A DNA stretch of 38,807 nucleotides from Gammaproteobacteria bacterium (GTDB lineage Bacteria > Pseudomonadota > Gammaproteobacteria > JAJPIJ01), in NCBI GenBank assembly GCA_022072255.1, contig JAJVHZ010000019.1:1-38807 (forward strand). Direction: 5' to 3'. Both the position numbers and the translations under genes were made by a program. The notes beneath the pieces are model-generated. The model made no database searches. It was not told the DNA's origin and saw nothing but the letters and a program-made list of their open reading frames with translations. This document shows, piece after piece, positions 9,311 through 31,548 of the stretch (the stretch's first letter is position 1; the number at the start of each line of letters is the position of its first letter).

Positions 9311-10174
9311 CTAGCCGGGCGATTGCCCGGCGGGGGCGCTGACCGCGACGGCCTGCCCGCTCCACGGGCATACGAATGACAGCCTCGATGCGACCAGCTG
9401 CATGCCGCGCGGGTCGGCGTTGCACTCCCCATATCGCGGGTCGCCCATCACCGGGTGACCGATGGCCGCGAAATGCCGCCGGATCTGGTGATAGCGGCCG
9501 GTGTGGATGCGCACCTCCAGGCGGCTGACGTCGCGGTCGGCATCGACCGCGAGCACCGTGTAGTCCGTGTGCGAGGCCTTGCCGTCGAGCGGTTCGTCGA
9601 TCCGGCCGGTGGCGCCGGCGGGGGCGAGCCGGCCTCGCACCTCGATCCGGTAGTACTTCCCGACCTTGCGATCATGGAACAGGGCGCCGAGTCTCGCGGC
9701 CGCCTGCGAGGAATGCGCGACCAGCATGACCCCCGCCGCCTCGCGATCCAGGCGGTGCACCAGGAACACCTGGCGGTTGCCGCCGAAATACTGCTCGACC
9801 TGACGTTCGAGCGTGCAGTGATCGCCGTAACGCGAGCCGTCGACGAGCAGGCCGGCGGGCTTGAACCAGGCGCTGTAGCGCCTGAAGTCCGCGACGGGCG
9901 TCGGCTTCAGGGGCTGCATGGCGAGGACGGCGGCATCGTAATACAGCGCGATCCGATCCCCGGGGATGAGTTCGGCGGTGACACGACGCAGGCGCTGCGG
10001 CCGCCGCCCGCGGCGCGTGAGCCACACCGCGCCCTTGTTCATGGCGTCCTTCAGGCGCTGGTTGGACAGTGTCGTCAGGCGAGCGAGGCACTGCAGTGCG
10101 CGCGGCGGGTCATCGGCGCGCACCTTGTGCTCGACGGTCACCGTCGTGCGCTCGGCATCTTCGGCTACGCGCAT
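9311..10174 (-). CDS. RluA-family RNA pseudouridine synthase
   Basis: 287 residues from the ATG at 10174. Enzymes of this family isomerise uridine to pseudouridine in rRNA or tRNA. The catalytic aspartate lies in HRLDREAAGVMLVA, the RluA/RluC/RluD signature; KYYRIEVRG and the C-terminal GRYHQIRRHFAAIGHPVMGDPRYG are also typical. The N-terminal region (NQRLKDAMNKGAVWLTRRG) resembles a short S4-like RNA-binding module. The frame continues upstream, but that extension runs into the perfect palindrome at 10183-10236 and is unlikely to be coding. The rRNA/tRNA target cannot be told. Its last codons form a GC-rich hairpin (9314-9331). Confidence 0.92.
   Translation of the reverse strand: MRVAEDAERTTVTVEHKVRADDPPRALQCLARLTTLSNQRLKDAMNKGAVWLTRRGRRPQRLRRVTAELIPGDRIALYYDAAVLAMQPLKPTPVADFRRYSAWFKPAGLLVDGSRYGDHCTLERQVEQYFGGNRQVFLVHRLDREAAGVMLVAHSSQAAARLGALFHDRKVGKYYRIEVRGRLAPAGATGRIDEPLDGKASHTDYTVLAVDADRDVSRLEVRIHTGRYHQIRRHFAAIGHPVMGDPRYGECNADPRGMQLVASRLSFVCPWSGQAVAVSAPAGQSPG
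9314..9331 (-). terminator. GC-rich hairpin at the 3' end of the pseudouridine synthase gene
   Basis: GCCGGGC (9314-9320) and GCCCGGC (9325-9331) form a perfect 7-base stem with a 4-base loop, inside the last codons. There is no U-tract, so it may only stabilise the mRNA end. Confidence 0.3.
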
Positions 10175-10182
10175 ATTGGCTG

Positions 10183-10236
10183 GGGGCCGGAGTGAATTGT
10201 CCTGGTGCATGCACCAGGACAATTCACTCCGGCCCC
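10183..10236. repeat. Perfect 54-bp palindrome
   Basis: Every base of 10183-10209 pairs with 10210-10236; there is no loop and the centre is TGCA/TGCA. Each arm begins GGGGCCGGAGTGAATTG from the outside. It lies between the pseudouridine synthase start and the stop of the next minus-strand gene. The outer arm resembles, from memory, the GGGGTCAGAGTGAATTG-type ends common in mobile or REP-like repeats of proteobacteria. It may be a solo palindromic repeat, a relic of two head-to-head ends, or a very strong bidirectional hairpin terminator. Confidence 0.9.
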
Positions 10237-10237
10237 T

Positions 10238-10711
10238 TCAATGACGGGTGCTGGGGGTACGCGTGAGTTCCGGCGGCTGCTCGATGGCGAGTCCGCGACG
10301 GACGCGCCGCCCGAGCAGCGCGGCGGCCTGCATGAAGGCGTTCTCGGCCTCGCGCGCGCACCAGTCCCAGTCCGAGGGGCTGTCGTTGACGCGCGTGCGC
10401 CAGTGCGCGAGCAGGAAGACCTCCCCGACCCGCATCTCCACCGTCCAGTCGTGCCAGGTCTCCTCGGCCACCTCCTCGTCGGCGTATTCCATCTCCAGGA
10501 ACCGGCAGTGATTGCCGCCGAACTCCGAGACGACGGTGGTCTCGGCCAGCACGAGGCTGTCGTCCACACAGGTGCGCCAGGCCGTGTGCACGCTCTGCGC
10601 GGTGGCGAACACGGTGTTCAGCAGGCCGGCCGGCGTCACCGTGATGGAGAGAGGAACATCCCAGCTCGGGTCGTCGCTGCGGGCTGATTCGTCGTCTTCG
10701 ATGGGCTTCAT
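10238..10711 (-). CDS. Hypothetical protein
   Basis: 157 residues, not recognised. It is acidic, soluble-looking and lacks a signal peptide or membrane segment. Composition looks coding: aromatic pairs, SITVTPAGLLNTVFATAQSVHTAWRTCVDD, then FLEMEYADEEVAEETWHDWTVEMRVGEVFLLAHWRTRVNDS (given in parts) and a helical end ENAFMQAAALLGRR. The stop codon falls two bases from the palindrome at 10183-10236, so that element may serve as its transcript end. It is divergent from the ECF sigma gene, with about 145 bases between the starts. Confidence 0.65.
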   Translation of the reverse strand: MKPIEDDESARSDDPSWDVPLSITVTPAGLLNTVFATAQSVHTAWRTCVDDSLVLAETTVVSEFGGNHCRFLEMEYADEEVAEETWHDWTVEMRVGEVFLLAHWRTRVNDSPSDWDWCAREAENAFMQAAALLGRRVRRGLAIEQPPELTRTPSTRH

Positions 10712-19129: not shown

Positions 19130-19456
19130 GGGCACCCCCGTGGCAGGATCGACAGTCTCTTCGACCAGGAGAAATCCGTTTTGATTCGCGTCAATCCGCG
19201 TGCAGCCGCGCCGCGGTGCGATACTGTCGCCTGATGGTCGGGCTCGCGATTGGCCGGCTGTAGCGAATGGCCGCGGCTTGTCCGGTATGTCGTTTCATTG
19301 AATACTGCCGGCAGGTCGCGTTATCGACGGGCTTGTCATGGCGTATCAGCTATCCTGTACCGAACACGGGTCCGATTTCCTCGTGCAGCCTGCCGTTTCA
19401 TCCTCCGGATGCGTGTCTTCCGAATCATGCTGGAAGCCGCCCAGGGGGATCTCCGG
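19130..19456. other. Intergenic region between divergent genes
   Basis: 327 bases between the 60-aa gene (-) and the chaA-type gene (+). It contains the FNR/ANR-type box at 19181-19194. Frames here, including the upstream extension of the antiporter frame to 19250, lack coding character. No RNA gene is seen. Confidence 0.5.
19181..19194. promoter_or_regulatory. FNR/ANR-family binding site
   Basis: TTGATTCGCGTCAA matches the TTGAT-N4-ATCAA consensus of FNR/ANR/DNR regulators with one mismatch (G for A at the first base of the right half-site). It is symmetric, so it could act on either neighbour, but it is much closer to the 60-aa gene. No FNR-like regulator gene is in the window. Confidence 0.6.
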
Positions 19457-20542
19457 GTGAGCAGCAGATACCGGCTGGCATGGGACTGGACCGTCGTCGT
19501 GCCCGTCGTCGCGTGCGCGCTGCTTGCGGCGGTCTGGGGACGGCCCCTGGGGTGGACTCTCTTACTCCTGGTCGCTGCGGGGCTCGTGGCAGCGGTGCTG
19601 CTCGGGGTTCACCACGCCGAGATCGTGGCCCATCGGGTCGGCGAGCCATTCGGAACGCTCGTTCTCGCGCTGGCGGTTACCGTGATCGAGTTGGGCCTCA
19701 TAGGCTCCATCATGCTCGCCGGTGGTACCGGTGCCAGCACCCTGGCGCGCGACACCTTGTTCGCCACGGTGATGATCGTGTGCAACGGTGTGGTCGGAAG
19801 TTGCCTTGCCGTGGGCGCCATCCGGCACCACGTACTGGAGTTCCGGGCGCAGGGCGCGGGCCATGAACTCGCCGCCCTCGCGCCTCTCGTGACGCTGACG
19901 CTGATACTGCCGAATTTCACGACGACCACCCCTGGGCCCTGGTACTCGATCCCCCAGCTCGTGTTTGCCGGCATTTCGTCGCTGGTCCTCTACGGCGTGT
20001 TCGTGTTTGCGCAGACCGTTCGCCATCGGGATTACTTTCTTCCTGTACTGGCCCAGGACGAAGAGCAGCATGCTGCGCCGCCTTCCGGCCGGGCCGCCCT
20101 GGCGAGCATGGCATTGCTGCTGCTTTGTCTCGTTGCGGTCGTCGGGCTGGCAAAGCAGCTTGCGCCCGTGATCGAGGAGGCGGTACGGGCGATCGCCGCA
20201 CCGCCGACCACGGTCGGTTTGATCATCGCCCTCGTCGTGCTCGCGCCGGAATCGGTGGCCGCACTGCGCGCCGCGGCACGCAATCGCATGCAGACCAGCC
20301 TCAACCTGGCGCTCGGGTCCGCGCTCGCCAGCATCGGGCTCACCATCCCGTCGGTGGTCGTGCTCTCCGTCTTGCTCGGGCTGCCATTGGAGCTCGGTCT
20401 CGGGCCGACGCAGATCGTACTGGTGGCACTGACCATGCTGCTGTCAGCGATTACCCTGGCCAGTGGCCGCGCGACGATCCTTCATGGAGCGGTGCATCTG
20501 GTCGTGTTCGGCGCGTTTCTCGTGCTGGCGTTCTTTCCCTGA
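19457..20542 (+). CDS. chaA: ChaA-type calcium(sodium, potassium)/proton antiporter
   Basis: 361 residues from GTG 19457, which follows AGGGGGAT by about eight bases and gives the family's usual length (~366 in E. coli ChaA); in-frame ATGs at 19427 and 19409 are alternatives. About eleven membrane segments. The two CaCA alpha-repeat motifs are visible: GEPFGTLVLALAVTVIELGLI in the first half and IALVVLAPESVAALRAAARN with LNLALGSALASIGLTIP in the second, both with the membrane glutamate needed for cation binding. The protein exports cations in exchange for protons, usually at alkaline pH or under salt stress. Convergent with the LysR gene. Confidence 0.92.
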   Translation: MSSRYRLAWDWTVVVPVVACALLAAVWGRPLGWTLLLLVAAGLVAAVLLGVHHAEIVAHRVGEPFGTLVLALAVTVIELGLIGSIMLAGGTGASTLARDTLFATVMIVCNGVVGSCLAVGAIRHHVLEFRAQGAGHELAALAPLVTLTLILPNFTTTTPGPWYSIPQLVFAGISSLVLYGVFVFAQTVRHRDYFLPVLAQDEEQHAAPPSGRAALASMALLLLCLVAVVGLAKQLAPVIEEAVRAIAAPPTTVGLIIALVVLAPESVAALRAAARNRMQTSLNLALGSALASIGLTIPSVVVLSVLLGLPLELGLGPTQIVLVALTMLLSAITLASGRATILHGAVHLVVFGAFLVLAFFP

Positions 20543-20611: not shown

Positions 20612-21496
20612 TTATCTCCGTAGTCTTGCGACCAGGAACGCGACGAAAGTAGTGAGTTTGGGTAGTGACTGCCGGGCGCCCGGGTACACGGCGTGGATCG
20701 GACGCGCGGGCGGTACGTGACCCTTCATCAACTCCGTCAAGCGCCCCGCTTCGATATCCGGTCTCAGCAGCTCTCTGGGCATCATGATGATGCCGATGCC
20801 CTTGACTGCTGCTGCGAGCAGGGCCTGGGCATTGTCGGACTCGAACCTTGGCGACTGACCGATCTCCGACCCCACCTTTCCCTGCATGAGCTTCCACCCG
20901 CCCTGACGTTGCCAGTTGGTGAATCCGAGGCATTGATGTTTCGGCAAATCAGAGGGCTTCCTGGGCACCCCTGCCGCAGCCAGGTATTCGGGAGACGCGC
21001 AGATCGCCACTTCGAACATCGACAGCTTTCTTGCGATGAGGGATGAGTCGGCCAGCTCCCCGATTCTTATCGCAACGTCGATGCCCTCCTCCACGAGGTC
21101 TACATAGCGATCGGTCAACGACAGCTGGACATTCACTTCCGGATACTGCTTGAGGTAATCACAGATGACGGGCGCGAGCGTCAGGGATCCGAACCATATG
21201 GAAGCGTTCACCCGTAACAGGCCTTTGGGTCTGCTGCCCATGGCTTCCGCTCCCGCCTCCGCCGAGGCAACCTGCTCCAGGATCTGTCTGCAGTTCTGGC
21301 AATACTTTTCCCCGATCTCGGTGAGACGCTGACGCCGGGTCGTCCTCGTCAGCAGAGGCGAGCCGAGTCGTTTCTCCAGGCCGGCAATGTGTTTGCTCAC
21401 CATGGCCGGGGTAATCCTGAATGCGTTCGCGGCGGCGGTGAAACTGCCCAGGTTCACCGTTGCCACGAATATCTCCATACTGAGCAGGCGGTCCAT
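20612..21496 (-). CDS. LysR family transcriptional regulator
   Basis: 294 residues from ATG 21496 (a TTG at 21508 would add four). The N-terminal winged helix-turn-helix is MDRLLSMEIFVATVNLGSFTAAANAFRITPAMVSKHIAGLEKRLGSPLLTRTTRRQRLTEIG (given for orientation in parts: SFTAAAN, TPAMVSKHI, LLTRTTRR). The effector domain shows DVAIRIGELADSSL and CASPEYLAAAGVP, typical of the CrgA/DsdC-like LysR group. It is divergent from the small SDR gene at 21608, the usual regulator/target arrangement. The AT-rich spacer (21497-21607) contains the candidate operator at 21502-21515. Confidence 0.93.
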   Translation of the reverse strand: MDRLLSMEIFVATVNLGSFTAAANAFRITPAMVSKHIAGLEKRLGSPLLTRTTRRQRLTEIGEKYCQNCRQILEQVASAEAGAEAMGSRPKGLLRVNASIWFGSLTLAPVICDYLKQYPEVNVQLSLTDRYVDLVEEGIDVAIRIGELADSSLIARKLSMFEVAICASPEYLAAAGVPRKPSDLPKHQCLGFTNWQRQGGWKLMQGKVGSEIGQSPRFESDNAQALLAAAVKGIGIIMMPRELLRPDIEAGRLTELMKGHVPPARPIHAVYPGARQSLPKLTTFVAFLVARLRR

Positions 21497-21501
21497 ATTA
21501 A

Positions 21502-21515
21502 TTACCAATGGTTAA
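21502..21515. promoter_or_regulatory. Candidate LysR operator in divergent promoter
   Basis: TTACCAATGGTTAA is a near-palindrome with a perfect 9-base core (ACCAATGGT around the central A) and the T-N11-A type end spacing seen in LysR sites. It lies just upstream of the LysR ATG within a markedly AT-rich 110-base spacer, which also holds TATGCT at 21531-21536 as a possible -10 element for the SDR gene. Confidence 0.45.
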
Positions 21516-21607
21516 TGGTGTTTTAAACATTATGCTCTTTTTCGTGCTTAATTGTCGGCACAGAATGGCCTCCGTTCCGTAAGTCAACCTGGCTCAATGG
21601 AGGCATC

Positions 21608-22207
21608 ATGAAAGTCCTGGTCGTAGGCGCATCCGGCACTATCGGAAGGCTCGTCATCAAGGAGTTCGCCCCGCGTCACGAGATCATCGAAGTGGGCAAG
21701 AACCAGGGACGGCATCGGGCAGACATCACCAGCGAGGAGAGCATCCGCCAGCTCTTCAACCAGGTCGGCAAGGTCGACGCCATCATTGCCGTCGCCGGTA
21801 ACGTGCATTGGGGGCCGCTGAAGGAAATGACGGCTGAGCAATTCGAGCTCGGCCTGCGCGAGAAGTTGATGGGGCAGGTCAATCTGACGCTCATTGGCCG
21901 GCACTTCCTGAACGACGGCGGCTCCATCACCCTTACCAGCGGTAGCCTGAGTCACGATCCGTACGTGGGGGGCGCGAGCTTTACCACCGTGAACTCTGCC
22001 ATCGACGGCTTCGTTCGCGGCGCCGCCATCGAACTGGAGCATGGTCGCCGCATCAATTCGGTGAGCCCCAATGTGCTCAAGGAATCCTGGGGCACCTATG
22101 GTGCGGGAGTGCCGGGTACCGACCCCGTTCCCGGCGAGAAGGTTGTACTGGCCTACCGCAAGAGTGTCGAGGGTCAGCAGACCGGGCAAACATATCGGGT
22201 CTGGTGA
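21608..22207 (+). CDS. Short atypical short-chain dehydrogenase/reductase (SDR)
   Basis: 199 residues. It has the nucleotide-binding motif VVGASGTIGRLV, the IIAVAGNVHWGPL equivalent of NNAG, and the serine strand SITLTSGSLS. The usual catalytic YxxxK is missing: the corresponding stretch reads GASFTTVNSAIDGFV. SDRs of this short form exist and often carry FxxxN-type replacements, so it may be a reductase with a changed mechanism or a nucleotide-binding regulator. Its start is 111 bases from the divergent LysR start, so it is probably that regulator's target. ATG 21608 follows GGAGG by a few bases. Confidence 0.88.
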   Translation: MKVLVVGASGTIGRLVIKEFAPRHEIIEVGKNQGRHRADITSEESIRQLFNQVGKVDAIIAVAGNVHWGPLKEMTAEQFELGLREKLMGQVNLTLIGRHFLNDGGSITLTSGSLSHDPYVGGASFTTVNSAIDGFVRGAAIELEHGRRINSVSPNVLKESWGTYGAGVPGTDPVPGEKVVLAYRKSVEGQQTGQTYRVW

Positions 22208-22366: not shown

Positions 22367-22957
22367 TCAGGTGACGATGAAATGCGCCTCGACCGGATTG
22401 AAGCCGTTGATCGGGATCATGTCCTGCGGGCAGGCCGACATCGCGACGATGCAGTCGATCTCGGCGCGCAGCACGACGTAGTCGCCGGGTTTGGACGCCG
22501 GCGGCAGCCACTGAATGCCGTCGTTTTCCACGACCGGGATGTTCATCCAGAGGTTCAACGGCGACGGGCATTCCGGCGGCGCAAGACCGAGCTCCGCCAT
22601 CGCCTCGCGGAGGTTGTCGGTGCAGTTGCGGTGATACTCCCTGCACCCCAGTCCCTGGTAGCGCCAGATGTCGCAGGCCGCGATCAGCGTGTCGTGCGCG
22701 CCCGGCGAGGTGTCCTCCGTCAGCGTGAGGATCGGCCGGCGGTGATTGCTGGCGATTGGATCTCCGACCCGGGGGCGGATCCGATCGATGTACGCGCGCG
22801 CGTGCTCCATCGACATGAACTCCTGCAGGTCGGCGGCATTGAAGGCCCAGGTGTCGACGACCTGGTTGCCGTGCGTGTTGACGATGCGGATGCTCTGGCC
22901 CAGTGCCAGGCGCGCGGCCTTGCCATGCCGGGCCGGGATGGTGACGAGTTCACTCAT
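22367..22957 (-). CDS. DUF1989 protein (urea carboxylase-associated / YcgI family)
   Basis: 196 residues. Typical DUF1989 elements: an N-terminal strand region IPARHGKAARLALGQSIRIVNTHGNQVVDTW, EHARAYIDRIRPRVGD, RPILTLTEDTSPGAHDTLIAACD, then CREYHRNCTDNL and the closing MSACPQDMIPINGFNPVEAHF (quoted in parts). In guanidine-degrading bacteria two DUF1989 proteins form carboxyguanidine deiminase (CgdAB), acting after urea/guanidine carboxylase. Here a single DUF1989 gene is the last of an eight-gene operon and no carboxylase is present, so it may be a deiminase or amidohydrolase for another guanidino or ureido intermediate (inference). ATG 22957 follows GAGGAGA. Confidence 0.88.
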   Translation of the reverse strand: MSELVTIPARHGKAARLALGQSIRIVNTHGNQVVDTWAFNAADLQEFMSMEHARAYIDRIRPRVGDPIASNHRRPILTLTEDTSPGAHDTLIAACDIWRYQGLGCREYHRNCTDNLREAMAELGLAPPECPSPLNLWMNIPVVENDGIQWLPPASKPGDYVVLRAEIDCIVAMSACPQDMIPINGFNPVEAHFIVT

Positions 22958-22981: not shown

Positions 22982-23734
22982 CTAATACATCGCCGCCCCG
23001 CCGTTCGGACTGATGCATTGCCCGGTCATGAACGTCGCACCGGGACCGGCGAGGAACACCGCGACAGCCGCTATCTCCTCGACCTTCGCGATGCGCCCCA
23101 GCGGGTTGTTCTCCTCCTTCTTCCTCCACTCGAGGCTCATGTGCCCGATGTCGAGCATCGGTGTGTCGGTCGGCCCCGGCGCGATGGCGTTCACCAGGAT
23201 GTGCGGCGCGAACTCGCGCGCCCAGGATCGGGTCATCGACAGCACCGCTCCCTTCGATGCGCAATATGGCGAGAACTGCTCGCGGCCGAGCAGCGCCAGC
23301 TCCGAGGCGATGTTGATTACGCGCCCGTGCCTCTGAGCCGCCATGACGCGCAGCGCCTCGCGCCCGACGATGAACGTGCCGCGCGCATTCACGGCCATGA
23401 TCCGGTCGAACACCGCGAGCGGGGTGTCGAGCAGCGGACCGTCGGCGATCACCCCGGCGCTGTTGACGAGGAGATCGAGCCCACCCATGCGCCGGGCCGC
23501 GCCGGTCACCGCCGCAACCGCCGATGCCTCGTCGGACACATCGGCCTGCACCGCGAACGCCTCGCCGCCGGCGGCCCGGATGCTCGCGACGACCGCCGCC
23601 GTCACCTCCCGCGCCGCACGGTCCACGATCGCGACCTGCATGCCCTCGCCCGCCAGCGCGCAGGCGATGCCGCGCCCGATGCCGCTGGCCGCGCCGGTGA
23701 CGATGGCCTTCTGTCCGGCAAGCTGCCCGCTCAT
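22982..23734 (-). CDS. SDR family NAD(P)-dependent oxidoreductase (second of pair)
   Basis: 250 residues from ATG 23734, which overlaps the previous stop as ATGA; the open frame upstream shadows the previous gene. Classical SDR: TGAASGIGRGIA at the N-terminus, Asp after strand 2 (VAIVDRAA, pointing to NAD), NSAG, the catalytic Ser in NIASEL and YCASK. The C-terminus ends TGQCISPNGGAAMY. It probably oxidises or reduces an alcohol/ketone in the pathway encoded by this operon; the substrate is not evident. It shares the operon with a different SDR, so the two may act on successive intermediates or on opposite stereoisomers. Confidence 0.92.
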   Translation of the reverse strand: MSGQLAGQKAIVTGAASGIGRGIACALAGEGMQVAIVDRAAREVTAAVVASIRAAGGEAFAVQADVSDEASAVAAVTGAARRMGGLDLLVNSAGVIADGPLLDTPLAVFDRIMAVNARGTFIVGREALRVMAAQRHGRVINIASELALLGREQFSPYCASKGAVLSMTRSWAREFAPHILVNAIAPGPTDTPMLDIGHMSLEWRKKEENNPLGRIAKVEEIAAVAVFLAGPGATFMTGQCISPNGGAAMY

Positions 23735-24507
23735 GCCATCAACTCGCCGCGGTCGACGCTGTAGGCCTGGCCGGTGATGTTGCGCGCGAGGTCCGAGGCC
23801 AGGAACAGGTACAGGGCGCTCACGTCCTCCGGCGTCATCAACCCCGGCAGCGCCTGCGCGCCGGTGATCTCCTCCAGCAGCGCCTGCTCGCCGATGCCGG
23901 ATCGCCGCGACATCTCCGCGAGCGATCGCATCGAGGCCTGGGTCCGGACCCAGCCCGGGCACACGGCATTGACGTTGATGCCGCGCGGGCCGAGTTCCTT
24001 CGCCAGTGTGCGCATGAAGCCGATGTTGGCGTGCTTGCTGGCGCAGTAGGCGCCGAACTGCGCCTCGGCGGTCTTTCCCCACACCGAGGCCGTGAAGACG
24101 ATGCGGCCGCCCGCCGGCATGCGCGCCACCGCCTCGCGGGTCACGTAATAGGTTCCCACGACATTGATCTCGATGATGCGGCGGAAAGTGTCTTCGACCT
24201 CCTCGCCCGGCTCGAGCATCGGCGTGATCAACTCCAGGCCGGCGTTGTTGACGAGGACGTCGATCCGATCGAGCGGCACGAACGCGTCACGAACGGCCTG
24301 GCGGCTGGTAATGTCGCACTGGATCGACCGCACCGGACTTCCGAACTCGCTCCGGAGCTGCCCGCCAACCTCGAGGATGCCGCGATCATCGGCGAGTATG
24401 GTCATCTCCGCCCCCGCGGCGGCGAAGGCGCGGGCGATGCCGAGACCGATGCCGCGGCTCGCGCCGGTCACGAGCACCTGCCTGCCGCTGAAGTCGAACG
24501 TGCTCAC
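23731..24507 (-). CDS. SDR family NAD(P)-dependent oxidoreductase (first of pair)
   Basis: 258 residues from GTG 24507, overlapping the stop of the ABC ATPase gene as GTGA. Classical SDR motifs: TGASRGIGLGIA, acidic residues after strand 2 (MTILADD, suggesting NAD), NNAGLELITPM, catalytic Ser in TASVWG and YCASKHA with Tyr and Lys, and NAVCPGWVRT. The closing TGQAYSVDRGELM is also family-typical. Clear divergence from the neighbouring SDR indicates a distinct substrate or step. Overlapping starts on both sides imply translational coupling with the importer genes. Confidence 0.92.
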   Translation of the reverse strand: MSTFDFSGRQVLVTGASRGIGLGIARAFAAAGAEMTILADDRGILEVGGQLRSEFGSPVRSIQCDITSRQAVRDAFVPLDRIDVLVNNAGLELITPMLEPGEEVEDTFRRIIEINVVGTYYVTREAVARMPAGGRIVFTASVWGKTAEAQFGAYCASKHANIGFMRTLAKELGPRGINVNAVCPGWVRTQASMRSLAEMSRRSGIGEQALLEEITGAQALPGLMTPEDVSALYLFLASDLARNITGQAYSVDRGELMA

Positions 24508-25331
24508 GCCGGGGACATTCCGCCCTGCAGCATGATCTTCTCGGTCTGCAGGGCCAGCTTGCGGGTGACGTCGAGTATCGAGTTGCGCAGCGCGAAGAAC
24601 GCCTGTGTCGACTTCACCGCCAGCGGCCGCTCGGTGCCGATATGGTCGCCGACGCGGATCTCCTGGAGCACCCGCGCAGGGCGCGCCGAGAACAGCATGA
24701 TGCGGTCGGCGAGAAAGATCGCCTCCTCGACATCGTGGGTGACGAAGATGACGGTCTTCTGCTCGGACTTCTGGATGCCGACCAGCTGCTCCTGCAGGAA
24801 CTCGCGATTCTGGGCGTCCAGCGCGCCGAACGGCTCGTCCATCAGGAGCACGTCCGGCCCGGCGGCGAGCGTGCGCGCGATGGCGAGCCGCTGGCGCATG
24901 CCGCCGGAGATCCGGTTGACCCTGTAGGTCTCGAAGCCGCGCAGGCCCACCAGCTCCAGGTAGTATTGCGCCAGGCGCTCCTTCTCTGCGGCCGATATGT
25001 CGTCGCGGAATCTCATCCCGAAACGGATGTTGTCGATGACGTCCAGCCAGGGGAACGACGAGTAGGACTGGAATACCATGCCCTTCTTGCGATCCGGTCC
25101 GATCACCGTGGCACCGTCGAGCAGCACCTGGCCGCAACTCGCCGTCTCGAGTCCGCCGACGATGCGCATCAACGTCGTCTTGCCGCAGCCGGAAGGCCCC
25201 AGGAAGATGATGAACTCGCCCCTGGCGATCGTCATCGAGACGTTCTCGATCACCCGTACGGCGGCGGACTTGCCGTGTGCGGCGAACTCCTTGCTGACGC
25301 GATCGATGAGGATGAAGCCGTCGTTGCCCAT
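24504..25331 (-). CDS. ABC importer ATPase (SsuB/TauB type)
   Basis: 275 residues from ATG 25331, which follows GGGGCG; an in-frame ATG at 25364 would lie inside the permease gene. Walker A GPSGCGKTTLMRIVGG, Q-loop VFQSYSSFPWLDVIDNI, signature ISGGMRQRLAIARTL, Walker B VLLMDEPFGALD and the H-loop FVTHDVEEA are intact. The order VTHDVEEAIFLADRI and the pairing with an SsuC-like permease and NMT1-like binding protein place it with the nitrate/sulfonate/taurine importer class, whose members also move pyrimidines, hydantoins and ureido compounds. Confidence 0.93.
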   Translation of the reverse strand: MGNDGFILIDRVSKEFAAHGKSAAVRVIENVSMTIARGEFIIFLGPSGCGKTTLMRIVGGLETASCGQVLLDGATVIGPDRKKGMVFQSYSSFPWLDVIDNIRFGMRFRDDISAAEKERLAQYYLELVGLRGFETYRVNRISGGMRQRLAIARTLAAGPDVLLMDEPFGALDAQNREFLQEQLVGIQKSEQKTVIFVTHDVEEAIFLADRIMLFSARPARVLQEIRVGDHIGTERPLAVKSTQAFFALRNSILDVTRKLALQTEKIMLQGGMSPA

Positions 25332-25341
25332 GTCGCCCCGC

Positions 25342-26217
25342 TCAGCGAAGGTAGGCGAAGGCACGCCGGTGCAGCCAGCGGATGAACTGGTCGGTCAGGA
25401 ATCCGATGACCCCGATCGCGAGGATTCCGGCCATGACTTCCGGGGTCTTCACGTACCGCCGCGCCGACCAGATCACGTACCCGATGCCCGAGTCGGAGGC
25501 GACGATCTCGGCAATGATGAGATAGGTCCAGCACCAGCCGAGCGTGATGCGCAGGTTGTCGACCATGCTCGGCAGCATCGCCGGCAGGATGATGTGGCGC
25601 AGCACCTGCGACGGCCTGGCTCCGACGGTCATGCCGACCTCGACGTATTCGCGCGGCACGCGGCGGGCATCGTCGGCGATGAGCAGCACGAGCTGGAAGA
25701 ACGTGCCCATCCACAGCAGGGCGATCTTCGATGCCTCGCCGATGCCCAGCCAGATCACCGTCAGCGGCACCAGCGCCGGCACCGGCAGGTAACGAATGAA
25801 ATCGATGATGGGCTCGGTGAGCCCGTTGACGATGCGGAACGAGCTCATCAGGATCCCGAGCGGTATGGCCACGATCGCCGAGAGCAGGAAGGCGAGCCAG
25901 ACGCGGTAGACGCTGATCCCGATATCGTCCAGGAACTCGTACCTCGTCAGCAGCTCCCAGAGGCGGACGACGACCGCCTGCGGCGAGGCGAGATACTGTT
26001 TCGGCACCACCTCGAACGCGACCAGCCCCGACCAGATCGCCAGCAGCAGCGCGAACCCGATGACCCCGAGCGCGATATCCGTCCCGCGCGTCGTGCTGCC
26101 GCGAAAGCCGGTGAGCTGCTGCCACACCGTGGGTTCCGGCACCGGCGGCGCGGCGCCGCTCGCCGGACCGTCCGGGCCGGAACCCTCGCTGCCGTGGGGG
26201 TCACGCTGCTCCGTCAA
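25342..26217 (-). CDS. ABC importer permease (SsuC/TauC type)
   Basis: 291 residues with six membrane segments. The ATPase-contact EAA loop reads EYVEVGMTVGARPSQVLRHIILPAMLPSMVDNLR, in keeping with the BPD_transp_1 fold. An N-terminal cytoplasmic extension of ~45 residues is rich in Pro, Gly and Ser. The start is TTG 26217, 21 bases past the binding-protein stop, with no strong ribosome site, so a shorter form is possible. It lies between the binding protein and ATPase genes and forms the importer's channel. Confidence 0.91.
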   Translation of the reverse strand: MTEQRDPHGSEGSGPDGPASGAAPPVPEPTVWQQLTGFRGSTTRGTDIALGVIGFALLLAIWSGLVAFEVVPKQYLASPQAVVVRLWELLTRYEFLDDIGISVYRVWLAFLLSAIVAIPLGILMSSFRIVNGLTEPIIDFIRYLPVPALVPLTVIWLGIGEASKIALLWMGTFFQLVLLIADDARRVPREYVEVGMTVGARPSQVLRHIILPAMLPSMVDNLRITLGWCWTYLIIAEIVASDSGIGYVIWSARRYVKTPEVMAGILAIGVIGFLTDQFIRWLHRRAFAYLR

Positions 26218-26238: not shown

Positions 26239-27249
26239 TCAGCGCTTCTTGTCCTTGAAGAGATCGGTCACGATGGAGTTGTCGATCTGCTGATTCGAAT
26301 CGAGCTTTGCATCCGCCGCGCCGTTCTCGAGGTTCAATGCCATGACCTCGTCGAAAAGGTCGTGCAGCTTGCCGCGGCTGCCCGCGGCGCCGAGATAGTC
26401 GACTGCCTCCTCGTAGGGGGTGTAGGCGAGATTCGCCAGCGTCTCCTCGAACTCCTCCGGCGTGAGCTTGAAGTGCGGCGCCATGATCGCGACCGCCTCG
26501 GCGCGGTTCTTGCCGAAATAGTCGATCGCACGATAGATGCCGCGCAGGAACTTGCGGTACATCTCGGGGTTGGCGCGCAGGTTCTCGGTGCGGGCGACGA
26601 TGACGTCGGTGATCAGGCCCGGATAGTCCTTCGACGATACGAGAATGTGGGCGCCCTCCTTCTGGCTGGCCTTGATCGCCTGCGACAGGGTCGGCTCATA
26701 GGTGCCGGCCGCGGCCACCTCCGGGTCGGCGAACACCGCGATCGCGTCGGCGGAGGCGATGTCCTTGACCTGCACGTCCGCCAGCGAAAGCCCGTGCTTC
26801 TTGAGATCCATCTGCAGGATCAGGCGCGCCGGCACGTTAGGCTCCACCGCCACGACCTTGCCTTTCAGATCGGCGGAGCTCTTCGTCGCGCCGTCGGCGA
26901 CGACGCCGTCACCGCCGAGGGAGACGTCGATGGTGCCGATGATCGTGCCCTGGGTCTCCGCTGTCCTCGGGCGCCCCTGGTGCTCGCCCACGGTGCGCAT
27001 GTCGCACTGGATGTCGCCGCGTTCGAGCGCCGGCAGCACGTTGCCGCGATCGTCGTCGAACACCTCCTCGACCTCCAGGCCCTCCTCCTTGAAATAACCA
27101 AGCTCCTGCGCGAGGTGCACCGGCGCGAAGCCGGGCCAGAACGGATAGGCGCACTTGATCTTGTCCGCCGCGAACACGTTCGTGCACATCATTATCGTTG
27201 CGGACAGCACCGCCGCCGCGACCAACCTCGACCTCATTGTGCCTTGCAT
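26239..27249 (-). CDS. ABC importer substrate-binding protein (NMT1/SsuA-like)
   Basis: 336 residues with a signal peptide (residues 1-~28, ending NVFAADK) and a start ATG 27249 behind GGGAGGA. The mature protein begins IKCAYPFWPGFAPVHLAQELGYFKEEGLEVE, the NMT1/THI5-like fold used for sulfonates, nitrate, thiamine precursors, hydantoins and ureido compounds. A helical ending (RGKLHDLFDEVMALNLENG) is present. The ligand cannot be read from sequence; operon context suggests a guanidino, ureido or lactam compound. It delivers its ligand to the permease/ATPase pair encoded next. Confidence 0.91.
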   Translation of the reverse strand: MQGTMRSRLVAAAVLSATIMMCTNVFAADKIKCAYPFWPGFAPVHLAQELGYFKEEGLEVEEVFDDDRGNVLPALERGDIQCDMRTVGEHQGRPRTAETQGTIIGTIDVSLGGDGVVADGATKSSADLKGKVVAVEPNVPARLILQMDLKKHGLSLADVQVKDIASADAIAVFADPEVAAAGTYEPTLSQAIKASQKEGAHILVSSKDYPGLITDVIVARTENLRANPEMYRKFLRGIYRAIDYFGKNRAEAVAIMAPHFKLTPEEFEETLANLAYTPYEEAVDYLGAAGSRGKLHDLFDEVMALNLENGAADAKLDSNQQIDNSIVTDLFKDKKR

Positions 27250-27281: not shown

Positions 27282-28031
27282 TCAGAATTCCTTTCTGACG
27301 GCCGCGACGATACTGTCGCGGAACTGCTCAGCCATGATCCGCCCCTTCTCCGCGGTCGCCGCCTTCGCCGAGGTCAGCGCGCCGGAGGATGGCACCCAGC
27401 GACGATGCGGCGGGAACATGTCATAAGGCGGGAAGTCCGCGGAGGGGTGATCCGGGAGCCGATCGAGACGAACGTGATGCGGCTGATAATGCAGCATCAG
27501 GGAGGTCTCGATGACGGCGGCGTGTTCCAGCGCGGCGCCGGGATAGCCGTCCGGGAAAACCCGCTCTATCGTCCGCGGTTCGATGAAATCCCAATACTCC
27601 AGGCGCATGATGCGCACGCCCGTGTGCCCGACCTCGCGCATCGCGAGGTCGATGCCCTCGGTGACGAACCACTGATTCTCGTAATGCCCGACGAGGAAGC
27701 ACAGCTTGCGCACCCCGTGGCGGACCTGCTCGCGAATGATGTCGCGGACCAGGGAGGCGACCGTGCCGCCGTCGAGATTGGTCGTGCCGGGGAAGTGCGC
27801 CCCGCCGCCGCTCTTCGGCATCGACTTGTAGCCGTATGCGAGCGCCGGCAGCACCAGGCCGCCGACCCCCTCGGCGATACCGGTGGACACCGCGCTCGCG
27901 AGGATGGCGTCCGTGCCCAGCGGCAGGTGCGGACCGTGCTGCTCCAGCGCGCCGCACGGCACCATGACCACCGGATCGCGGACGACGCGCTCGGCGTACT
28001 CGGGCCAGCTCAGGTCGCTAACTTGTGCCAT
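27282..28031 (-). CDS. Creatininase (creatinine amidohydrolase) homologue
   Basis: 249 residues from ATG 28031, preceded by GGAGG. Creatininase opens the creatinine lactam to creatine at a two-metal site. The expected ligands are visible: Glu30 and His32 in LEQHGPHLPLGTD, Asp41, and His116/Glu118 in GHYENQWF. The longer stretches EGIDLAMRE, EYWDFIEP and DHPSADFPPYDMFP resemble, from memory, the Pseudomonas creatininase itself rather than the broader family (MftE, FAPy deformylase). The equivalent of the Pseudomonas flap tryptophan (W174) appears to be Ala in PGAALEH, so substrate may differ. Creatinase is absent from the window. Confidence 0.85.
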   Translation of the reverse strand: MAQVSDLSWPEYAERVVRDPVVMVPCGALEQHGPHLPLGTDAILASAVSTGIAEGVGGLVLPALAYGYKSMPKSGGGAHFPGTTNLDGGTVASLVRDIIREQVRHGVRKLCFLVGHYENQWFVTEGIDLAMREVGHTGVRIMRLEYWDFIEPRTIERVFPDGYPGAALEHAAVIETSLMLHYQPHHVRLDRLPDHPSADFPPYDMFPPHRRWVPSSGALTSAKAATAEKGRIMAEQFRDSIVAAVRKEF

Positions 28032-28063: not shown

Positions 28064-29104
28064 TCAGTCCGTGCGTGCCCGCCGGCGGCGGTCGACCGCA
28101 TCGGCGAGCAGGCACAGCAGTTCGAACATCAGGGTCGCGCCGACCAGGGCCGTGCTGCCGCTCGGGTCGAACGGCGGCGCCACCTCGACGACGTCGGCGC
28201 CGATCAGATTCAGGCCCCGGAGTCCGCGCAGCACCGCCTGCGCCTCGCGGGTGGTGATGCCGCCGATCTCCGGCGTGCCCGTGCCCGGAGCGAACGCCGG
28301 GTCGAGGCCGTCGACATCGAAGCTGATGTAGGTAGGGCCGTCGCCGGCGACGCGACGCGCCTCGGCGATCGTGCCCTCCACGCCCAGGCGGGTGAACTCC
28401 TCCATGTAGATGACCCGCATCCCGCTCCGCTCGGCGAAGGCCATGTCCTCGGGGCCGTACAGCGACCCCCGGATCCCGATCTGCACGGTCCGGCCCGGAT
28501 CGAGCAGCCCCTCCTCGACCGCGCGGCGGAACGGCGTGCCATGCGTGTAGCGGTTGTCGCCGAAATAGCGATCCCAGGTATCGGAGTGCGCGTCGAAGTG
28601 GATCATCCCGACCGGGCGCCCGCGGGCAATCGCGCGGAAGATGGGCAGCGTGATCAGGTGATCGCCGCCGGCGGACAGGGGCAGACAGCCGGCCGCGCGC
28701 ACCGGCTGATAGAACCGCTCGATTATCGCCAGCGACTCCATCAGGTTGATCGGATTCACCGGCGCGTCGCCCATGTCCGCGCATCGGGCAAGCCGGTACG
28801 GCGAGATCCGGCTGACGTGATGCGTACTGCGCATGAGGCTCGACATGTTGCGGATCTCGCGCGGCCCGTGGCGGGCGCCGGCGCGGTTGGTCGTGCCGCC
28901 ATCCCACGGCACGCCGATGAGCGCTATGTCGAGCTGCGCGGGATCGCAGATGCAGGGCAGGCGCATGAACGTCGGGATCGCGCCAAAGCGCGGCATGAGC
29001 GCCGCATCGACCGGTTGGGGGAACTCGGTGGCTGTTGTCATGCGCTGGCAGTACGGACCGTTGTGAACGACCCAGGTGGCCGTGGCCACCATCCCGACTC
29101 GCAT
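28064..29104 (-). CDS. Ureohydrolase, guanidinopropionase/agmatinase-like
   Basis: 346 residues. It belongs to the arginase/agmatinase family, which removes urea from a guanidino group with two Mn ions; the ligands are intact: His149 in GGDH, Asp171/His173/Asp175 in HFDAHSD, Asp263/Asp265 in SFDVDGLDPAF. The segments IPTFMRLP, GVPWDGGTTNRAGARHGPRE, DAPVNPINL and YTHGTPFRRAVEEGLLDP match, from memory, the Pseudomonas 3-guanidinopropionase GpuA more closely than arginase or SpeB. ATG 29104 has GGAGG four bases upstream; ATG 29041 would match the family N-terminus (MTTATEFPQP), so the extra 21 residues are doubtful. It is the first gene of the eight-gene operon. Confidence 0.9.
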   Translation of the reverse strand: MRVGMVATATWVVHNGPYCQRMTTATEFPQPVDAALMPRFGAIPTFMRLPCICDPAQLDIALIGVPWDGGTTNRAGARHGPREIRNMSSLMRSTHHVSRISPYRLARCADMGDAPVNPINLMESLAIIERFYQPVRAAGCLPLSAGGDHLITLPIFRAIARGRPVGMIHFDAHSDTWDRYFGDNRYTHGTPFRRAVEEGLLDPGRTVQIGIRGSLYGPEDMAFAERSGMRVIYMEEFTRLGVEGTIAEARRVAGDGPTYISFDVDGLDPAFAPGTGTPEIGGITTREAQAVLRGLRGLNLIGADVVEVAPPFDPSGSTALVGATLMFELLCLLADAVDRRRRARTD

Positions 29105-29242: not shown

Positions 29243-30226
29243 ATGAGCCTGATCCCGGGATCGGAACTGCGCAATCTGCGCGTCTTCGCCACGATCGTGC
29301 GCGCCGGCGGGATTGCCGGTGCGCAACTGGCGCTGAACCTCAGCCAGTCGACGGTTTCGACCCACCTGGCTGCATTGGAGCGGTGCATGGGCGTGCGTCT
29401 CTGTCATCGCGGTCGCGGCGGCTTCCGGCTGACGGAGGCCGGACAGGTGGTGTACGACGCCGCGAAGGAGCTGCTGAGCGCGGCCGAGCACTTCCGCGCG
29501 CGGACGGCCTCGCTGCAGGGCTCGATCGCCGGGACGCTGCGCATCGGCATCGTCGATGCCACCGTCGGCAACCCGTACCTGCCGCTGCAGGCAATCATCC
29601 GGCGCTTTGGCGCGCACGCCCCGGAGGTGTTGCTGGATGTCGTGGTCGCGGACCCCGTCGAGCTCGAGCAGCAACTGCTCAACGGGCAGCGCGACATCGG
29701 CATCGGTGTCTTCTACCAGCAGGCCACGGGCCTGAACTACGAACCGCTGTACGCCGAGGAGCAGGAGCTGTACTGCGGCCCCGGTCATCCGCTGTTCGCG
29801 GTCGCCAGTCGCGAGGTGACGGTGGATCGGGTGCGCGCCTCCCCGTTCGTCGCGCGCAGCTATGTGCACCGGCTGGAAATGGAACGGCTCGGCTACAGCA
29901 AGGCGGCCGCGACGGTGCAGTGCATGGAGGCGCAGGCGACGTTGATCCTGACCGGCCGCTACGTCGGCTATCTGCCATCGCACTACGCGCAGACCTGGGT
30001 CGGCGCCGGCCAGATGCGCACGCTGATGCCGAAGCGCTTCCGCTACCACTCGCCGTTCTTCGCGGCCTATCGCCGCGGCGCCGAGGATGGCATCCTGTTG
30101 CAGGCCTTCCTGCGCGACCTCGATGCCGAGCGCACCAGCGCCAACAACGGGCCACTCGCCAGGCAGTGGCGGTTCCGCGGCGAGACCTCGTTGCCGCGTC
30201 TGCGCCGGCGCCAGCGCGCGGGGTGA
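29243..30226 (+). CDS. LysR family regulator of the guanidino-compound cluster
   Basis: 327 residues. The helix-turn-helix region is LRVFATIVRAGGIAGAQLALNLSQSTVSTHLAALE, followed by HRGRGGFRLTEAGQVVYDAAKEL; the effector domain contains GTLRIGIVDATVGNP and LYCGPGHPLF. Its gene is divergent from the eight-gene catabolic operon and shares an overlapping promoter with it, so it is the likely regulator of that operon and of the downstream amidohydrolase. The C-terminus is Arg-rich (SLPRLRRRQRAG), which is unusual. ATG 29243 lacks a strong ribosome site. Confidence 0.92.
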   Translation: MSLIPGSELRNLRVFATIVRAGGIAGAQLALNLSQSTVSTHLAALERCMGVRLCHRGRGGFRLTEAGQVVYDAAKELLSAAEHFRARTASLQGSIAGTLRIGIVDATVGNPYLPLQAIIRRFGAHAPEVLLDVVVADPVELEQQLLNGQRDIGIGVFYQQATGLNYEPLYAEEQELYCGPGHPLFAVASREVTVDRVRASPFVARSYVHRLEMERLGYSKAAATVQCMEAQATLILTGRYVGYLPSHYAQTWVGAGQMRTLMPKRFRYHSPFFAAYRRGAEDGILLQAFLRDLDAERTSANNGPLARQWRFRGETSLPRLRRRQRAG

Positions 30227-30259: not shown

Positions 30260-30286
30260 ATGCATCCCGCACCGGCGCGCTGGTGA
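30260..30286 (+). CDS. Eight-codon leader frame before the amidohydrolase
   Basis: ATG 30260 follows GGAG by ten bases and encodes MHPAPARW before a TGA that overlaps the amidohydrolase ATG. The amidohydrolase itself lacks a good ribosome site, so re-initiation from this frame is plausible. It is too short to judge by codon use. Confidence 0.3.
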   Translation: MHPAPARW

Positions 30287-31548
30287 TGGCGACACACTGC
30301 AATCCTGACCGTATCGCCGCGGCGGCCGCGGTCGACGAGGCGCGCCTGTGGTCGCGTCTCGTCGAGTTCGGCGAGATCGGCGCTATCGGCGGCGGGGGCG
30401 TGTGCCGGCTGGCGCTCAGCGACGAGGAACTCGCCGCACGGCGATACATCGCGGGCTGGGCGCACTCGCGGGGCCATCGAGTGTTCGTCGATGCCGTCGC
30501 CAACCTGTTCGTTCGTCGCGAAGGCACCGATCCTGCGGCCGCGCCCGTGATCACCGGCAGCCACATCGACACCCAGCCGCAAGGCGGGCGATTCGACGGC
30601 GCCTACGGCGTGATCGCCGGACTCGAGGCGCTCGCGGCGCTGGACGAGGCGGCGGTGCAGACCCGCCGCCCGATCGAAGTCGTCGCCTGGACCAACGAGG
30701 AGGGCGTGCGTTTCACTCCCGGCGCGATGGGCTCCATGGTGTTCAGCGGTGCGCTGGCACTGAGCGATATCGCCGGGCGGCGCGGAAGCGATGGCGTCCC
30801 CCTGTCGGGCGCGCTTGCCTCGGCGCTGGCGGCAACGCCGCAGGCGACGTTCCGCCAGACAGTTCGACCGATCGCCGCGTACGTCGAGGCGCACATCGAG
30901 CAGGGCCCGGAGCTCGAGGCGAAGGGCATTCCGATCGGCGTCGTCGAGGGCATACAGGGTGTGCGCTGGTTCGACGTCGACGTCGTCGGCAGCGGCGCGC
31001 ATGCCGGCACGACCCCGCTGGCGCGGCGCCGCGATGCGTTCCAGGACGCGCTGCGCATCGTCAACGCCCTGAACGAGTGGACGTCGGACCCGGGCGATGT
31101 ACTGCGCTTCACGGTCGGACACGTCGAGGTCACTCCGAATTCACGCAACACCGTGCCGGCCCGGGCACGCCTGGGCATCGATCTGCGGCATCCCGATGCG
31201 GGCGTCCTGCGGGAGAAGGGTGACCGGATTGCCGCGATCGCGGCCGGGGCGGCCAGACATTGCGAGGTCTGCGTCCGCGAGGTCTTCACCAAGGCGCCGG
31301 CGACCTTCGACCGCCAGGTGATCGACACCATCGAGACCGCGGCACGCCTGTTGCGGATCCCCAGCCTGCGCATGCCTTCGGGCGCGTTTCACGACGCGCT
31401 GTTCCTCAACGACCTCTGTCCGACCGGGATGATCTTCATTCCCTGCGAGCGCGGCATCAGCCACGACCCGGCGGAGAACATCACCGCCGCCCAGGCCGCC
31501 GCCGGCGCGCGGGTGCTCGCGGCCACGCTCGTCGCACTGGCCGATTGA
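30286..31548 (+). CDS. M20-family amidohydrolase (N-carbamoyl-L-amino acid hydrolase / allantoate amidohydrolase type)
   Basis: 420 residues. The family hydrolyses N-carbamoyl or ureido groups using two metal ions. Metal-site elements: GSHIDTQPQGGRFDGAYG (His92, Asp103), WTNEEGVRF (Glu138 region), EAHIEQGPELE (His201) and GISHDPAENI near the end; the dimerisation-domain GSGAHAGTTP is also present. The usual MPSGAGHDA reads MPSGAFHDA, a Gly-to-Phe change beside a catalytic-site His. Start ATG 30286 overlaps the stop of an eight-codon leader frame (TGATG); GTG 30283 is the alternative. Located downstream of, and probably co-transcribed with, the LysR gene. Substrate is open; carbamoyl or ureido products of the divergent operon fit. 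Confidence 0.92.
   Translation: MATHCNPDRIAAAAAVDEARLWSRLVEFGEIGAIGGGGVCRLALSDEELAARRYIAGWAHSRGHRVFVDAVANLFVRREGTDPAAAPVITGSHIDTQPQGGRFDGAYGVIAGLEALAALDEAAVQTRRPIEVVAWTNEEGVRFTPGAMGSMVFSGALALSDIAGRRGSDGVPLSGALASALAATPQATFRQTVRPIAAYVEAHIEQGPELEAKGIPIGVVEGIQGVRWFDVDVVGSGAHAGTTPLARRRDAFQDALRIVNALNEWTSDPGDVLRFTVGHVEVTPNSRNTVPARARLGIDLRHPDAGVLREKGDRIAAIAAGAARHCEVCVREVFTKAPATFDRQVIDTIETAARLLRIPSLRMPSGAFHDALFLNDLCPTGMIFIPCERGISHDPAENITAAQAAAGARVLAATLVALAD

Follow-up and report, generated by a model that had tools for sequence, protein, structure and literature searches.

The window analysed here, the whole 38,807-nucleotide stretch of contig JAJVHZ010000019.1 of a Gammaproteobacteria bacterium, contains eight consecutive genes on the same strand, starting with an arginase-family gene, continuing with genes for a creatininase, a solute-binding protein, a permease, an ATPase and two SDR proteins, and ending with a DUF1989 gene (Table 1). 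Adjacent genes overlap by 4 bp or are separated by about 10–33 bp (at most 89 bp if a shorter start is taken for the solute-binding protein). The LysR and M20 genes diverge from the start of this operon, and both are still adjacent to it in the genome of a sister species, G342, where the eight genes of the operon, LysR and M20 are all retained at 86–95% identity per gene. Past the DUF1989 end the genes differ in G342, where DUF1989 is directly followed by a relative of the gene at 19409–20542. In the window, a divergent pair consisting of a LysR gene and a PRK07578-type SDR gene (20612–22207) lies between the operon and the gene at 19409–20542; it was not found there in G342, which points to acquisition or loss of genes where the operon ends. 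Since G342 keeps the block without this following pair, the operon ends with DUF1989. When the window was searched for a guanidine riboswitch, no Rfam match exceeded the gathering score.

Table 1. Genes of the DUF1989 operon and the adjoining divergent genes
Feature	Position	Strand	Basis
DUF1989 protein, solo clade	22367–22957	-	PF09347; AlphaFold2 model; superposition on 3siy
SDR-b, SDR family oxidoreductase	22982–23734	-	PF13561, E 1.6e-57
SDR-a, SDR family oxidoreductase, 3-hydroxybutyrate-dehydrogenase-like	23731–24507	-	PF13561, E 7.4e-51
ABC importer ATPase, NitT/TauT type	24504–25331	-	PF00005, E 9.3e-29
ABC importer permease	25342–26217	-	PF00528, E 2.8e-26
ABC solute-binding protein, NMT1/SsuA-like	26239–27249	-	PF09084, E 1.1e-20
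Creatininase-family cyclic amidohydrolase	27282–28031	-	TIGR04448, 352.9 bits (cut-off 235)
Arginase-family ureohydrolase, 3-guanidinopropionase-like	28064–29104	-	3nip, 538.7 bits, 74.2% identity
Divergent LysR regulator	29243–30226	+	PF00126, PF03466; 90.5% identity to the sister genome copy
M20 hydantoinase/carbamoylase-family amidase	30283–31548	+	TIGR01879, 393.6 bits (cut-off 204)

The best NCBIfam match of SDR-a, PRK12429 (173.9 bits), is under its cut-off of 258, as are the NCBIfam matches of the importer ATPase to SaoA (228 bits) and to the taurine model (216 bits) under theirs; the solute-binding protein scores 83.6 bits against TIGR01728 (cut-off 163.5). For SDR-b, no NCBIfam equivalog was above its cut-off among the matches listed, and partners with 43–62% identity were found in 5 loci.

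The last gene of the operon is an intact ORF, from ATG to stop, encoding 196 aa. Its product matches PF09347 with an E-value of 1.5e-51 and 174.8 bits (cut-off 27) over positions 2–168 of the 168-position model, which is far beyond chance. An earlier note, made from the sequence alone, had described a single DUF1989 gene closing an operon with a ureohydrolase and a creatininase; the ORF, the Pfam match and the finding of one such match in the genome bear this out, and the operon proves to contain an ABC importer and two SDR genes as well, with LysR and M20 genes adjoining. The AlphaFold2 model of the protein (mean pLDDT 96.8) superimposes on PDB 3SIY with a Z score of 32.9 and an rmsd of 1.0 over 196 residues (52% identity). 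This structure, like 3ORU, is of TM1040_0329, which belongs to the same subfamily by sequence (236 bits) and by structure; it comes from a structural-genomics effort and was deposited without a function, its title naming nothing beyond the DUF1989 family. Outside the DUF1989 entries, the fold search gave no convincing match (next Z score 5.2 over 71 residues); the Tdm entries, which were found by sequence search, were not among the fold matches listed, an absence that excludes nothing. Our literature search, which took in part of the literature, found no function for any solo DUF1989 protein.

Two kinds of DUF1989 enzymes serve for comparison. Schneider and co-workers are said to have reported in 2020 that one of them, the carboxyguanidine deiminase CgdAB, acts as a pair beside a carboxylase. 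The CgdAB pair, also known as UAAP1/UAAP2 (TIGR03425/TIGR03424), shares the fold family with the window protein, and the CgdA-like (UAAP2) subunit has the same three zinc cysteines; the pair is named in PMC11271267. Unlike CgdAB, the window protein is the product of the sole DUF1989 gene of a genome with no carboxylase and falls into another clade. It scores 110.2 bits against TIGR03424 (cut-off 284.7) and 72.7 bits against TIGR03425 (cut-off 205.95), passing neither. Membership in Cgd was rejected on these four grounds: the single gene, the missing carboxylase, the scores below both cut-offs and the position outside the Cgd clades.

The absence of a urea/guanidine carboxylase, claimed earlier for the operon, was also found across the genome, which is 95.5% complete. 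The best match to the urea carboxylase model TIGR02712 scored 513.4 bits (cut-off 1303.85) and covered the biotin-carboxylase part only, the best match to the allophanate hydrolase model scored 157 bits (under 511), no match to the urease alpha subunit was found, and PF09347 matched once. The earlier note had named a second DUF1989 gene next to a carboxylase elsewhere in the genome, acting with this protein, as what would speak against it; no such pair was found. At 95.5% completeness these absences are strong, not absolute. In G342 (98% complete) there is likewise one DUF1989 match, and neither a carboxylase nor a urease was found. As a separate observation, both sister genomes carry a frame, about 1400 aa long and interrupted by a single TGA, with a weak biotinyl-domain match (G000:C21:44656-44985 and G342:C2:268693-269022).

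Ten genomes bearing a solo DUF1989 gene were compared: the window's genome, G342, G365, G214, G258, G093 and G369 to G372, the last four corresponding to loci L047, L048, L051 and L052. A carboxylase above the cut-off is absent from five of them (the window's genome, G342, G214, G258 and G093). In the remaining five (G365 and G369 to G372), the carboxylase is adjoined by its own DUF1989 gene pair in every case, and the solo gene is on a different contig or, in G365, 2.4 Mb away. Three of these genomes (G369, G370 and G371; MAGs of two Hyphomicrobium and one proteobacterium) carry in addition a Tdm-sized DUF1989 frame of 800–806 aa; Tdm-like refers here to length, not to the Tdm model. The coexistence of three kinds of DUF1989 protein in one cell speaks for the solo kind having a function of its own.

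These observations bear on the view that the protein is left over from the Cgd guanidine pathway or serves it as an accessory subunit, or else that it has no catalytic activity or acts in regulation. It does belong to the same family, and plasmid records give its relatives the generic label 'urea carboxylase-associated family protein'. We nevertheless regard this view as very improbable, as the protein scores far under both Cgd cut-offs and lies outside both Cgd clades, its active-site residues are near-invariant in 88 rows, and the carboxylases found elsewhere have a DUF1989 pair of their own.

A phylogenetic tree of 130 DUF1989 domains (quick search, LG+G4; 6 of the 136 aligned rows left out) united 96 rows in a solo clade with an SH-aLRT value of 99, with the Cgd-like and Tdm-sized rows outside it, subject to the long-branch caveats of a quick tree. 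Within this clade, the window row belongs to a supported set of 27 rows, together with four creatininase-type loci and the M20-type loci. The phylogeny proposed in the earlier note thus separates the solo clade from both Cgd subunits, and the comparison with Cgd is looser than that note implied.

The cysteines corresponding to C95, C112 and C176 of the window protein are present in 88, 87 and 88 of 88 solo rows, respectively, and H109, D179 and R73 are each present in all 88. A zinc site formed by C95, C112 and C176, with H109 and D179, is predicted for the window protein; the ligands are supported by this conservation, and the intact cysteines would be what a hydrolase or deiminase needs. The CgdA-like rows keep the zinc cysteines but have, unlike the window protein, Met at 109 and Leu at 179 (15 of 15 rows; 2 of the 15 were run against TIGR03424 and both exceed the cut-off), and Gly, Asn or Asp at 73. 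The cysteine at 112 is absent from all 10 CgdB-like rows, of which 1 was run against TIGR03425 and exceeds the cut-off. The five Tdm-sized rows, in turn, have His at 109 and Asp at 179. The pair also occurs outside the solo clade and the Tdm-sized rows, in a few divergent rows (e.g. L008, L009, L014 and one of the four in L108).

According to PMC12560246, Tdm binds zinc through three cysteines of its DUF1989 domain, and its H276 and D346, with which H109 and D179 of the window protein align, are proposed iron ligands. Tdm (NF053776) and the window protein thus have in common the zinc cysteines and the His/Asp pair; they differ in that Tdm, of about 760 aa, combines DUF1989 and GcvT domains, whereas the 196-aa protein consists of DUF1989 alone. 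It may therefore be asked whether the protein carries out a Tdm-like C–N cleavage of an N-alkyl, N-oxide or carbinolamine-type bond (e.g. in an aminal analogous to ureidoglycine, or an N-methyl group) instead of amidine deimination. Besides the His/Asp pair missing from the CgdA-like rows, NF053776 is the second-best NCBIfam match of the window protein (104.1 bits) and the best one of the L047 orthologue (124 bits), and hydrolysis of an aminal would not duplicate the work of an arginase or arginine-deiminase-type enzyme. We consider this alternative rather unlikely, because the protein has no GcvT domain and scores one tenth of the Tdm cut-off of 1100, a Tdm-sized DUF1989 protein coexists elsewhere in G369 to G371, and the operon is without demethylation partner genes. 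By sequence, the solo clade is neither Cgd nor Tdm.

The enzymes encoded beside DUF1989 depart from their characterized relatives. The arginase-family product is 74.2% identical to GpuA (PDB 3NIP), and the GpuA motif DAHSDTND reads DAHSDTWD in it; Trp at this position is found in 12 of 26 members of the arginase cluster, among them every one of the 9 M20-type loci that have an arginase. With Asn changed to Trp, the substrate of this enzyme may differ from 3-guanidinopropionate. The creatininase-family product exceeds the equivalog cut-off of TIGR04448 and is 50.6% identical to P. putida creatininase (3a6e chain), but the Trp of the GFLGWDIEHG loop seen in 1j2t and 1q3k is replaced by Ala, and none of the 7 members of the creatininase cluster has this pocket Trp. 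In the P. putida enzyme this is presumably residue 174, with a role in the pocket. These changes argue against the textbook substrates of both enzymes. Plain creatinine degradation by the operon was considered and is conceivable, given a creatininase-type gene above its cut-off; against it stand the loss of the pocket Trp, the departure of the arginase from GpuA, and a textbook pathway that has no place for two SDRs and DUF1989. A second creatininase-family gene is present in the window's genome at G000:C6:47429-48115 (162.6 bits).

Apart from the gene in the operon, no arginase-family match was found in the genome. Since a urease is absent, a role of DUF1989 directed at urea is thinkable: it might dispose of the urea or carbamoyl product as a nickel- and ATP-free ureide hydrolase, as no urease alpha subunit, carboxylase or allophanate hydrolase above the cut-off accompanies the arginase and G342 likewise has neither urease nor carboxylase. 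We judge such a role highly unlikely. The ADI/DDAH-like enzyme that occurs in sister operons should give no urea and DUF1989 is still kept there; among the ten solo-bearing genomes, a urease is present in four and a urea/guanidine carboxylase in five; and the urea may simply be excreted, or a gene be missed in a genome that is 95.5% complete.

The gene contexts come from a scan of genome contigs that gave the 80 best of over 560 relatives; 79 of these loci, none longer than 21 kb, were used, L119 being excluded from the counts as its DUF1989 gene was not called. With genes clustered at a threshold of 38% identity, which misses remote members such as the amidase after DUF1989 in L076, creatininase-family genes were found in 6 loci, arginase-family genes in 14, M20 genes of the window's cluster in 10 and ADI/DDAH-family genes in 4; 22 of the 79 loci contain at least one of these and 57 contain none. 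After thinning at 80% DUF1989 identity to 50 loci, the numbers were 3, 7, 4 and 1, respectively; this drop shows that several of the recurring operons are closely related. As a background, 14 and 47 of 114 genomes of the window's class contain creatininase- and arginase-family genes, respectively, a crude comparison in which whole genomes are set against short loci mostly from other classes.

Two types of context recur. In L047, L048, L051 and L052, the operon of the window is found with an ADI/DDAH-family gene in place of the arginase gene, in the order LysR / solute-binding protein, permease, ATPase, SDR-a, SDR-b, creatininase, DUF1989; the last two of these and the ADI/DDAH gene are contiguous, with overlaps of at most 4 bp, and L052 has an M20 gene in addition. 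In 11 M20-type loci, including plasmid records, M20 is located directly upstream of DUF1989, polar-amino-acid ABC genes also precede it, a gene for an XRE-cupin regulator follows DUF1989 (by Pfam, in one representative), and in 9 of the 11 an arginase gene is just downstream; G365 has the order DUF1989-M20-arginase. Among ten plasmid regions examined of 104 records, arginase pairs lie beside DUF1989 in L043 and L046, and an amidase and a PuuE-like deacetylase in L042, L044 and L045. Nineteen Klebsiella plasmid records have a solo-clade gene; in L037 (NZ_CP062999.1; DUF1989 at 9893–10594), a block of ABC importer, M20, DUF1989 and cupin-regulator genes lies between IS3-family elements, with no arginase annotated in the stretch. 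An Antarcticirhabdus locus (L108, 9992–12612) has four tandem DUF1989 genes after a block of arginase, ABC importer and arginase genes, one of the four proteins lacking the zinc cysteines.

Further kinds of neighbour were seen. Histidine-ammonia-lyase-type genes (PF00221) are found near solo DUF1989 genes in L049 (9961–11511), L074 (4061–6685) and L080 (8390–9922), together with a creatininase, an arginase, or an arginase and an amidohydrolase; they hint at an imidazole or imidazolone substrate. Seven DUF1989 rows are in or near a leucine-catabolism-type cluster. In alphaproteobacterial or other proteobacterial genomes (L055, L060, L092, L101 and L111), DUF1989 is just upstream of an SDR gene in such a cluster, which contains acyl-CoA dehydrogenase, carboxylase subunit and enoyl-CoA hydratase genes. 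The association of DUF1989 with guanidino/ureido hydrolases is thus recurrent, not universal.

Our preferred explanation, held tentatively, is that the protein is a stand-alone Zn(Cys)3 hydrolase, probably homo-oligomeric, from a DUF1989 clade that is separate from both Cgd and Tdm, and that it serves an operon for a guanidino compound. It is supported by i) the sole DUF1989 gene in a genome with no carboxylase, ii) the conservation of the operon with LysR and M20 in G342 next to a differing flank, iii) the ADI/DDAH operon variants, the M20-DUF1989-arginase loci, the separate clade and the conserved residues, and iv) the carboxylases of other genomes, each with its own DUF1989 pair (5 of 5). 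The importer would take up a cyclic or substituted guanidino compound, whose hydroxyl would be oxidised by the SDRs and whose cyclic guanidine or amide ring would be opened by the creatininase-type enzyme; the guanidino or ureido nitrogen would then be stripped by an arginase-type enzyme (here) or an ADI/DDAH-type enzyme (in the sister operons) together with the M20 carbamoylase. In DUF1989, zinc-activated water, assisted by H109 and D179, might attack an intermediate of guanidino or ureido type at its amidine (or aminal) carbon, R73 holding the carboxylate group of this intermediate, so that ammonia would be released with neither prior carboxylation nor a partner subunit. We infer hydrolysis or deimination, the homo-oligomeric state and the roles of R73, H109 and D179; H109 and D179 could act as acid–base or as second-metal residues, with R73 as the probable carboxylate holder.

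The earlier note had proposed a homomeric deiminase or amidohydrolase for another guanidino or ureido intermediate. Its proposal is supported in part: it gains from the lone gene, the missing carboxylase and the operon with ureohydrolase and creatininase, and loses in its closeness to Cgd, given the clade and the two active-site positions shared with Tdm-sized proteins. The same point weighs against our preferred explanation, in which deimination would be carried over by analogy from Cgd, an enzyme that differs at 109 and 179. Against it are also the 57 of 79 loci without the clusters and the 7 leucine-type rows, and the reaction may be wider than guanidino chemistry. In addition, as an arginase or ADI/DDAH gene is usually already present in the creatininase- and M20-type loci, deimination of a guanidino group by DUF1989 may be redundant, which favours routes that run in parallel, a substrate that is a ring or an aminal, or C–N cleavage in the manner of Tdm.

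A more specific proposal, possible but doubtful, is that the clade constitutes a third functional class of DUF1989 proteins, single-subunit and metal-dependent. These enzymes would convert guanidino acids, or the corresponding ring forms, straight into ureido acids by deimination, needing neither ATP nor carboxylation nor a partner, and would feed the M20 and amidase carbamoylases. The substrates considered are 3-guanidinopropionate and its ring form, 5-hydroxycreatinine and iminoallantoin-like ureides; 2-amino-imidazolone propionate is suggested by the histidine-ammonia-lyase-type genes in L049, L074 and L080.

The solo DUF1989 operon exists as described, is conserved, and is left unexplained by the DUF1989 enzymes known so far. 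The public label 'urea carboxylase-associated' is at odds, for the solo clade, with at least 5 of 10 genomes that contain no carboxylase, the carboxylases of the other 5 having their own pair. Knowledge of the reaction would correct this label, extend the chemistries of the DUF1989 fold to three, and assign a function to operons of environmental proteobacteria, Chloroflexota MAGs and Klebsiella plasmids; the creatininase operon points to the substrate space, cyclic and open-chain guanidino acids. If true, the direct-deiminating class would amount to a branch of guanidino nitrogen assimilation that dispenses with a carboxylase and uses a fold known until now from Cgd and Tdm.
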